In this document: piece after piece, positions 9,899 to 13,133 of the stretch | Position numbering within the stretch: the stretch's first letter is position 1 | Layout: every line of letters begins with the position of its first letter | Assembly: GCF_000092245.1 (NCBI RefSeq) | Contig: NC_014166.1 | Span: 2,356,001 to 2,420,000 of the forward strand | Source: Arcobacter nitrofigilis DSM 7299 | GTDB lineage: Bacteria; Campylobacterota; Campylobacteria; Campylobacterales; Arcobacteraceae | Length of the DNA: 64,000 bases | Direction of reading: 5' to 3' | Position numbers and translations under genes: made by a program | Notes under the pieces: generated by a model | The model's input: only the letters and a program-made list of their open reading frames with translations | Database searches by the model: none | Told to the model about the DNA's origin: nothing

Positions 9899-12472
9899 CT
9901 ATATTTTTGCGATTACCTCATCATTTTGCACATCAAAAACAACCTTACTTCCTGCACCAATTTTGTCTTCTAAAATCAAATCAGCAAGCTTATCTTCTAC
10001 TATTTCATAGATTGCTCTTTTTAGTGGTCTAGCACCATATACTGGGTCAAATCCAACTTTTGCAATAAACTCTTTTGCACTTTGAGTCAACTCAATTTGG
10101 ATATCTTTATCTTCAACTTTTTTCTTAATATCTTCAAATAATATTGAAACAATATTTGTAATTGAGTCTAATCCTAATTGTTCGAAAATAATTATATCAT
10201 CTAATCTATTTAAGAATTCTGGTTTAAAATAGTTTTTAATTTCTAAAAATACCTCTTCTCTTCTTTTATCTTTATCAGCTATTTCAATAATTTTACTGCT
10301 TCCAATATTTGAAGTTAATATGATAATTGTATTTTTAAAATCAATTGTAACACCTTTATTATCTGTTAGTCTTCCATCATCAAGTACTTGAAGTAAGATA
10401 TTAAATACATCAGGATGTGCTTTTTCAATCTCATCAAATAAAATCACACTATAAGGTTTTCTTCTAACCGCTTCTGTTAACTGCCCTCCTTCTTCATATC
10501 CAACATATCCAGGTGCTGCACCAATAAGTCTTGATACTGCATGTTTTTCCATATATTCACTCATATCAAATCTTATAAGTGATTTTTCATCATCAAATAA
10601 AAACTTCGCTAAGCTTTTTGCACTCTCGGTTTTACCAACACCTGTTGGTCCTAAGAACATAAATGAACCTATTGGTTTACTATCATCACTTAGCCCTGCT
10701 TTGTTTCTTTTAATTGCACGACTTATTGCTTTTAATGCTTCATCTTGACCTTTTACATCTTTTTTTAAAACACTTTCTATTTCTAAGATTTTTTGTTTAT
10801 CACTGTTTAACATTTTATTTACAGGAATTCCAGTCCATCTTGAAACAATACTTGCAATTGCATCTTCATCAACACTATTTCTCAATAATGTTCCTGCTTC
10901 TTGCATTTTGTCCCATTTTTCTTCATTTTCTTTTACTTGTTTTTCTAATTCTGGTATTTCTCCATACTCAATAGATGCTGCTTCTTCAAATCTTGATTCT
11001 CTTTTAGCCGCTAATGCTTTTGTTTTAAGTTCATCAATTCTTACTTTTAAAGTAGATGCTTTATTAAATGTCTCTTTTTCATTTAAAAATCTTGTTTCTA
11101 AAGCTCTTTGTTCTTCATTTAAATTGGCTAGTTCTTTTTCAATTGCTTCAATTCGCTCACTATTCTTTTTAGATTTTTCCATCTTTAAGGCTTCTTTTTC
11201 TACCATCAAAGTTTGAATTGCTCTTTTTACATTTGAAAGAACTATTGGTTCACTCTCTATTTGCATTTTAAGTTCAGCTGCTGCTTCATCTATAAGGTCA
11301 ATAGCTTTATCTGGCAAAAATCTATCAGAGATATATCTATCACTTAATTTTGCAGCTGCTACTAAGGCACTGTCATTGATATTTACACTATGGAAAGTTT
11401 CTAATTTCTCTTTTATACCTCGTAATATTTGTAAAGCTTCATTTACACTTGGTTCATCTACCGTAATTGGTTGAAATCTTCTTTGCATAGCAGTATCTTT
11501 TTCAAAATACTTTCTATACTCTTTTAGTGTAGTTGCACCAATAGTATGTAATTCACCCCTTGCAAGAGCTGGTTTTAAGATATTTGCAGCATCCATACTA
11601 CCTTCACTTGCACCTGCTCCTATTATTGTATGAATTTCATCAATAAATAAAATTACATTTCCAGCTTTTTTAACTTCATCTATAACTGATTTTAATCTAT
11701 CTTCAAACTCACCTCTATATTTTGCACCTGCAATTAAAGCACTCATATCAAGGGTTACAACTCTTTTATTTTGTAAAGATAGGGGAACATCCTTTGCAAC
11801 TATTCTTTGAGCTAGCCCTTCTGCAATAGCTGTTTTACCAGTCCCTGGTTCTCCTAGAAGTATTGGATTGTTTTTTGTTTTTCTTATAAGAATTTGCATC
11901 ATTCTCTGAATTTGCTCATCTCTTCCAATTACTGGGTCTAGTTTTCCTTCTATTGCTTGTTGGTTTAAGTCAATTCCATATTTTCCTAAGGCTTCTAAAT
12001 TTTCATCACCAGAAGCTGAGTCTATAACACTTCCACCTCTTATAGCTTCAAGTTCTTTTTTTGCCTCTCTTAAATCTATATATTTACCTAATACTTCTTT
12101 AAATACTTTATTATCAAAATTTGCTATTAACCATGAGTCAATAGCTATAAATTTATCTCCAAGGGTTGCCATCTGACCTTCTGCTTTTTGCAGTGAATCT
12201 ATAAAGCTCCTACTTAGTTTTATATTCTCTTTTGTAACTGTTGATACAGTTGGCAAAGATGAAGCGTGTGATTTTGCTTCTAATACTAAAGCTGTTTTGT
12301 CTATATTCATTTTATTTAATAATTGGTTTAGTACAGAATTTGTATTTGTTAATAATGCCCAAAGCATATGTATAACTTCAACTTCTTGGTTTTTATTATG
12401 TAATGCTAAAGCAACAGATGAATCTATGCTTTCTGCCATTTGGTTTGTTAGTTTTTCAAAAATTTTATTCAT
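9899..12472 (-). CDS. clpB: ATP-dependent chaperone ClpB
   Basis: It disaggregates heat-damaged proteins together with DnaK. The ATG at 12472 is preferred (857 aa), because it follows AAAGGAG by the right distance; an in-frame GTG three codons earlier lies inside that ribosome site. Domains in order: Clp-N double repeat (about 1-140), AAA1 with Walker A GEPGTGKT near 207 and Walker [11 protein letters not shown], the ClpB-specific coiled-coil middle domain (about 400-520), and AAA2 with GPTGVGKTE near 600. No ClpP-binding loop is expected. Single gene with its own heat-shock-type control region. Confidence 0.97.
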
Positions 12473-12474
12473 AA

Positions 12475-12501
12475 TTAGCACTCCTTTAATTTAACTGCTA
12501 A
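12475..12501 (-). promoter_or_regulatory. CIRCE operator (HrcA site) of clpB
   Basis: The minus strand reads TTAGCAGTT, nine bases, then GAGTGCTAA. The right half-site is a perfect match to CIRCE (TTAGCACTC-N9-GAGTGCTAA) and the left matches at 7 of 9 positions. It lies between the promoter and the start codon and overlaps the ribosome-binding site, the normal CIRCE position for HrcA repression. Confidence 0.85.
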
Positions 12502-12504
12502 TAA

Positions 12505-12534
12505 ATTATAGCACCTTGAGTGGACTTTTGTCAA
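12505..12534 (-). promoter_or_regulatory. Housekeeping promoter of clpB
   Basis: A consensus -35 TTGACA (12529-12534) and a consensus -10 TATAAT (12505-12510) are separated by 18 bases on the minus strand. The -35 is buried in the HAIR-like element and the -10 abuts CIRCE, so both repressors would block polymerase. Confidence 0.85.
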
Positions 12535-12535
12535 G
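12515..12535. promoter_or_regulatory. HAIR-like operator (HspR site) of clpB
   Basis: CTTGAGT, seven bases, TGTCAAG. The HspR consensus is CTTGAGT-N7-ACTCAAG, so one half-site is perfect and the other matches at 5 of 7 positions, with exact spacing. HspR controls chaperone genes including clpB in Campylobacter and Helicobacter. Together with CIRCE this suggests dual repression. Confidence 0.75.
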
Positions 12536-12596: not shown

Positions 12597-13133
12597 ATGT
12601 TATGTGGTATAGATGAAGCTGGACGTGGACCTTTAGCTGGACCTTTATGTGTGGCAGGAGTTGTTTTAAAAAATCCAATAGAAGGACTAAATGATTCTAA
12701 AAAACTTAGTGAAAAAAGAAGAGAAAAACTATTTGACGAGATAATTTTAAACTCATATTATCATATTGTATTTACAAGTGCAAAGACTTTAGATGAACTT
12801 GGACTATCACTTTGTCTAAAAAACTCCATAGAAGAGATTATGCAAAATGTTAAAGCAAATGAATATTTGATGGATGGGAACACCTCTTTTGGAATAGAAG
12901 GCTTAAAACATGAGATAAAAGCAGATGCAAATTATGAAGAAGTTAGTGCTGCATCAATTTTAGCAAAAGTTAGTAGAGATAGGTATATGGTAGAGATTTC
13001 ACAAAAATATCCAAACTATTTGTTTGAAAAACACAAAGGTTATGGAACAAAAGCACATATTGATTTAATAAAAGAGTTTGGAAGAAGTGAAGAACATAGA
13101 TATAGTTTCAAAACAAAAGGTATTGATTATTAA
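12597..13133 (+). CDS. rnhB: Ribonuclease HII
   Basis: It removes ribonucleotides and RNA from RNA-DNA hybrids. The 178-residue protein is a compact family member. The metal ligands are visible: Asp6-Glu7 in GIDEAGRGPLAGP, Asp93 in LMDGN, and Asp110 before the EEVSAASILAKVSRD motif. The ATG has AAAGGAAA upstream. It is divergent from clpB across the heat-shock control region and is followed 39 bases later by an oxygenase gene on the same strand. Confidence 0.95.
   Translation: MLCGIDEAGRGPLAGPLCVAGVVLKNPIEGLNDSKKLSEKRREKLFDEIILNSYYHIVFTSAKTLDELGLSLCLKNSIEEIMQNVKANEYLMDGNTSFGIEGLKHEIKADANYEEVSAASILAKVSRDRYMVEISQKYPNYLFEKHKGYGTKAHIDLIKEFGRSEEHRYSFKTKGIDY

Follow-up and report, generated by a model that had tools for sequence, protein, structure and literature searches.

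The clpB promoter of Arcobacter nitrofigilis carries two operators, a HAIR-type dyad and a CIRCE element, and this two-operator promoter is real and conserved. The sequences make it very probable that a sigma-70 promoter is held off at this locus by two repressors, HspR and HrcA. HspR on the HAIR dyad would block the -35, HrcA on CIRCE would block the start region of clpB, and heat would inactivate one or both repressors, thereby freeing a promoter whose hexamers are perfect. There might even be some cooperation between HspR and HrcA at clpB.

The clpB promoter and its candidate regulators

The locus lies in a window of 64,000 nucleotides, the whole stretch of DNA that we analysed (Table 1). 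The product of clpB scores 1158.8 bits with its best family, below the cut-off of 1232.1. As start codon we preferred the ATG at 12472, the point from which the protein is conserved (N-terminus match across relatives), to the GTG at 12481 of the list of open reading frames, which lies within CIRCE. The gene shares a 124-bp intergenic region with the divergent rnhB-like gene. In the sense of clpB, one reads successively CTTGACAAAAGTCCACTCAAG (HAIR-type, 12535-12515), the -10, TTAGCAGTTAAATTAAAGGAGTGCTAA (CIRCE, 12501-12475), two bases, and the ATG. The promoter, on the minus strand, is of the sigma-70 type and matches the consensus at 12 of 12 positions (TTGACA-18-TATAAT). Its -35 is covered by the HAIR dyad, and CIRCE, which ends 2 bp before the ATG, covers the ribosome site and the transcript start, which the position of the -10 would place near 12498. 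The preliminary description of this DNA had proposed this layout, with a HAIR-like dyad over the -35 of a consensus promoter, a CIRCE over the transcribed leader and ribosome site, and one perfect half-site with the right spacing in each operator; all of this is borne out.

Table 1. Coordinates of the features around the clpB promoter (positions in the window).
Feature	Position	Strand	Remark
clpB, ATP-dependent disaggregase	9899..12472	-	NCBIfam ClpB TIGR03346 best family
CIRCE, putative HrcA operator	12475..12501	.	clpB sense TTAGCAGTT-N9-GAGTGCTAA
Shine-Dalgarno AAGGAG	12481..12486	-	within CIRCE
-10 hexamer TATAAT	12505..12510	-	
HAIR, putative HspR operator	12515..12535	.	clpB sense CTTGACA-N7-ACTCAAG
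-35 hexamer TTGACA	12529..12534	-	embedded in upstream HAIR half-site
divergent gene, ribonuclease HII-like (rnhB-like)	12597..13133	+	protein named by eye

Each of the two motifs was compared with chance. On the plus strand the CIRCE reads TTAGCACTC-N9-AACTGCTAA, with arms matching at 9/9 and 7/9 positions; compared with the consensus TTAGCACTC-N9-GAGTGCTAA, 16 of 18 positions agree (2 mismatches) and the spacing is exact. It is the only site of the window with ≤3 mismatches, where 0.03 are expected and 3 of 100 shuffles had one. At the same threshold the whole genome (3,192,235 bp) has eight places, and the reversed control pattern has none. Seven of the eight lie upstream of groES, htpG, hrcA (two), hsp20 (two), and clpB, and the eighth (226469) is inside an open frame. 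The HAIR-like site reads CTTGAGT-N7-TGTCAAG on the plus strand, with halves matching at 7/7 and 5/7; it agrees with the consensus CTTGAGT-N7-ACTCAAG at 12 of 14 positions (2 mismatches), again with exact spacing. No other site in the window has ≤2 mismatches, for an expectation of 0.22, and one or more such sites turned up in 19 of 100 shuffles. HAIR by itself is a weak motif: with ≤3 mismatches there are 122 places in the genome and 95 for the control. Six places have ≤2 mismatches. Four of these are inside open frames of ≥150 codons and were dismissed as operators, which leaves only the sites of clpB and of cbpA-hspR (1 mismatch) outside long open frames. The 150 bp upstream of clpB were put through 5,000 simple shuffles, of which two gave a HAIR as good, none a CIRCE as good, and none both. 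These shuffles and the conservation described below rule out a chance origin of the clpB operators.

Both regulator genes, whose absence the preliminary description had named as the refuting case, were found in the genome. HspR (C1:1925788-1926165) scores 121.9 bits against a curated cut-off of 105. HrcA (C1:2920637-2921455) is encoded before grpE- and dnaK-like frames; it reaches 237 bits with NCBIfam PRK03911, just below the cut-off of 248, and 85.5 bits with TIGR00331, below the cut-off of 197.2. The Pfam model PF01628 does not match this protein. We rejected an absence of hrcA since the NCBIfam models match where PF01628 does not; the miss is a limit of the model, and calls of hrcA presence based on PF01628 would overlook this HrcA. 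HtpG, Hsp20, HspR, HrcA, the CbpA-type DnaJ protein, and ClpB were checked with family models, and groES, groEL, grpE, and dnaK were identified by eye.

Conservation of the operators and loss of hspR in Arcobacteraceae

We examined the upstream stretches of all 97 clpB matches found among 104 Arcobacteraceae genomes, leaving out the seven genomes with no match at the threshold. CIRCE is present with ≤4 mismatches in 95 of them (it is missing in G036 and G037), and 84 have both operators. In all 84, the distance from HAIR start to CIRCE start is 33-35 bp; the centres are 36-38 bp apart, a spacing that is conserved in the family. The columns of the second HAIR half have 1.08-2.0 bits each in these 84 promoters, and the N7 and the 30 bp upstream are far more variable (mean 0.56 bits per column); the alignment was anchored on TTGACA and on promoters passing the HAIR threshold, which makes the first half invariant by construction. 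Where CIRCE and the ribosome site overlap (75 promoters), parts of the N9 are also conserved, because the ribosome site falls there.

The loss of hspR in some lineages provides what amounts, at the level of sequence, to a natural knock-out test of HAIR, and these genomes are ready-made controls. The gene was not found in 14 of the 104 genomes. A second search of 13 of them with the curated HspR model again returned none (G018, 54% complete, was left out). Genomes without hspR number 13 in the genera g5, g7, and g8, and 11 of these have an hrcA match. The hspR-less genomes contribute 12 of the 97 clpB promoters (3 from g5, 7 from g7, 2 from g8), and since these come from only three genera, the independent losses are few.

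This contrast bears on whether HrcA might be the only repressor working at clpB, the 'HAIR' being no more than a strong -35 (TTGACA) with a chance match beside it. The first HAIR half is identical to the -35, and the weakness of HAIR in the genome-wide counts would fit such a view. However, the second half is no part of the promoter, and it follows the presence of hspR: ACTCAAG or ACTAAAG, scored with ≤1 mismatch, is found in 84 of the 85 promoters from genomes with hspR and in none of the 12 from genomes lacking it, where composition predicts 0.4% (Fisher 1.8e-14, a value that ignores kinship and, since the genomes are related, overstates the evidence). The TTGACA itself is at the -35 in 85/85 and 9/12 promoters, respectively, so that promoter and operator can be told apart. 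We thus regard the action of HrcA alone as very unlikely. The one exception among genomes with an hspR match, G042, has no HAIR at clpB and comes from an assembly that is 7% contaminated.

The opposite possibility is that only HspR works at clpB and that CIRCE is a relic. This is how Campylobacter jejuni is described, with HspR alone given as repressor of clpB and cbpA (PMC7464140), and the two mismatches of the upstream CIRCE arm could be read in the same way. Yet CIRCE is retained in 95 of the 97 promoters. Of the 75 in which it overlaps the ribosome site, 71 have an intact downstream arm, and all nine hspR-less promoters of g7 and g8 have 0 or 1 mismatch in CIRCE. A relic with this pattern seems highly improbable to us. 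Joint control by HspR and HrcA, as claimed in the preliminary description, is instead supported by the conservation in the family and by the contrast upon hspR loss. Two genomes have clpB and no hrcA that we could find: G037 lacks CIRCE, and G073, whose assembly is 85% complete, keeps it, but these are two genomes only. G036 has hrcA and lacks CIRCE at clpB.

The promoter of hrcA in A. nitrofigilis has both operators, like that of clpB. We collected hrcA promoters from 60 relatives, out of 99 that had a match, and added that of the window's own genome (61 in total). The second HAIR half is present with ≤2 mismatches in 46 of the 50 promoters from genomes with hspR against 1 of the 11 from those without, and with ≤1 mismatch in 31/50 against 1/11. 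The contrast is less clean than at clpB: at the looser threshold, four of the 50 lack the half, and one hspR-less genome (G051) keeps it. A second CIRCE-like site lies 67 bp 5' of the core one upstream of hrcA in A. nitrofigilis; it is present in some relatives and was not found in others.

The imperfect half-sites

The imperfect half-sites at clpB are, judging from their conservation, not drift. The first HAIR half is CTTGACA in all 85 promoters of genomes with hspR, and its two departures from CTTGAGT thereby make the consensus -35 hexamer. A weak-looking half-site can thus be explained by overlap with a -35. At position 7 of the upstream CIRCE arm, all 75 clpB promoters with a CIRCE overlapping the ribosome site have G or A, and all 20 with a separate CIRCE have C. 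The suggestion in the preliminary description that degenerate half-sites may tune the strength of repression left out two points, namely that the HAIR half-site doubles as the -35 hexamer and that the degenerate CIRCE half-site is conserved too.

Why the CIRCE arm stays imperfect is a separate question. It may be that the mismatches keep the mRNA palindrome from burying the ribosome site, an explanation that we find possible and rather doubtful. The split at position 7 speaks for it. Natural CIRCE elements fold with a mean of -4.7 kcal/mol when overlapping and of -10.6 kcal/mol when apart, with the ribosome site unpaired on average at 70% (75 leaders) and 78% (19 leaders scored out of 20), respectively. 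Moreover, five genomes have G at position 7 in hrcA and C in a displaced clpB CIRCE. Against it, clade and overlap are confounded at clpB, and the hrcA operators have G7 in 45 of the 61 genomes; in 44 of these, more than 3 bases separate the operator from the nearest plausible start codon. The rule is also broken by two hrcA operators, those of G036 and G038, which have C7 and adjoin the ATG. Because G7 operators of hrcA are mostly away from the start codon, burial cannot account for the imperfect arm in general; as a rule it finds no support across the 61 hrcA promoters, and we retain it as an alternative for clpB only.

Other chaperone promoters and the history of the clpB operators

The pair of repressors is known from relatives in which it is deployed differently. 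C. jejuni is described as having both repressors on groESL and hrcA, where HspR binds far upstream and CIRCE lies over the start site (Pgro, Phrc); HspR is placed on the core promoter only where it acts alone (Pclp, Pcbp), and the HrcA footprints of section 3.4 concern Pgro and Phrc only (PMC7464140). Another report states in its results that clpB is regulated by HspR solely, and is less strict in its introduction, where HspR and HrcA jointly repress DnaK, ClpB, and GroESL (PMC12131804). The clpB promoter of A. nitrofigilis resembles Pgro and Phrc in having two predicted repressors with HAIR-like and CIRCE-like operators, the latter over the start site. In contrast with them, both its operators are on the core promoter: the arrangement with the HspR operator upstream of the core and only HrcA on it does not hold, since HAIR covers the -35.

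The division of targets seems to differ at clpB as well. Whereas C. jejuni is described as having clpB under HspR only and groESL under both, A. nitrofigilis has both operators at clpB and hrcA. At groES it has a perfect CIRCE and a HAIR-like match that is only marginal, with 4 mismatches (shuffle p 0.04), and that lies upstream of the core promoter, where the HspR sites of C. jejuni are also found. The same division as in C. jejuni is therefore unsupported at clpB. The contrast with Campylobacter is sharper than in the preliminary description, which named groESL and hrcA-grpE-dnaK as the usual targets of dual repression in Helicobacter and Campylobacter. This suggests that the choice of chaperone operon with both repressors is not fixed among the relatives of Campylobacter.

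As in Helicobacter pylori, the same HspR/HrcA pair would exert negative control on chaperone operons (PMC7464140). According to the same source, the two repressors show cooperation in C. jejuni but none in H. pylori, and the HrcA regulon of H. pylori is given as enclosed in that of HspR. This nesting is unsupported in A. nitrofigilis, where htpG, hsp20, and groES have CIRCE and best HAIR matches with 5 (shuffle p 0.35), 4 (shuffle p 0.04), and 4 mismatches. In Bifidobacterium, HspR is reported to target clpB and dnaK, and HrcA to target groEL, groES, and hrcA (PMC9004370); the HspR operator at clpB is shared with A. nitrofigilis, but CIRCE is listed in that source at the three HrcA targets and not at clpB. 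Arcobacter, HspR, and HrcA are all named in PMC12343642, and a search of titles and abstract openings found no description of dual clpB control in Arcobacteraceae.

Two of these promoters have further peculiarities. The CIRCE of htpG ends ~133 bp before the start codon, which implies a long leader. There are two CIRCE-like sites in tandem upstream of hsp20, and its leader has a perfect inverted repeat, CTTGATA-N7-TATCAAG, which is arranged 7-7-7 as HAIR is and has 4 mismatches to it.

We then considered clpB promoters in the rest of the order, using a sample of 61 genomes out of 203 matches, which we hand-picked so as to represent 19 families. A separate clpB scan of genome contigs gave mostly distant phyla and was left out of the analysis. 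HAIR is in the -35 register of clpB in 49 of the 61, and CIRCE is present with ≤3 mismatches in three and with 4 mismatches in two more. hspR was found in 59 and hrcA of the PRK03911 type in 36, so that clpB promoters without CIRCE are not simply due to a lack of hrcA. Eleven of the 59 genomes with hspR have no HAIR at clpB, and one of the two without hspR (G175) keeps it; so close a link of the operator to its gene is therefore peculiar to the family sample, and the looser link elsewhere slightly tempers both the dual-repression reading and the historical one given next.

From these distributions, control of clpB by HspR appears to be old within the order, and control by HrcA appears to have been added in Arcobacteraceae. 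We tentatively propose, as a scenario with somewhat less than even chances, that an old clpB promoter under HspR only gained CIRCE in this family, and that HspR, no longer needed once HrcA could suffice, then disappeared from some lineages. If so, the gain of CIRCE at a fixed centre distance of 36-38 bp would have produced the two-repressor core promoter, and HrcA alone would now hold clpB in genomes without hspR, where the HAIR half-sites would have decayed and CIRCE would have become perfect or nearly so. The family would then show the steps by which one repressor replaces another, and it offers the chance to trace, genome by genome, how HspR might have given way to HrcA.

Two genomes of other families have a CIRCE at clpB in unusual contexts. 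In G109 it has 1 mismatch and there is no HAIR; hspR was not found in this genome, nor was hrcA with PRK03911. In G111 a CIRCE with 2 mismatches lies directly upstream of the -35 and HAIR of clpB, a layout that may be an independent gain.
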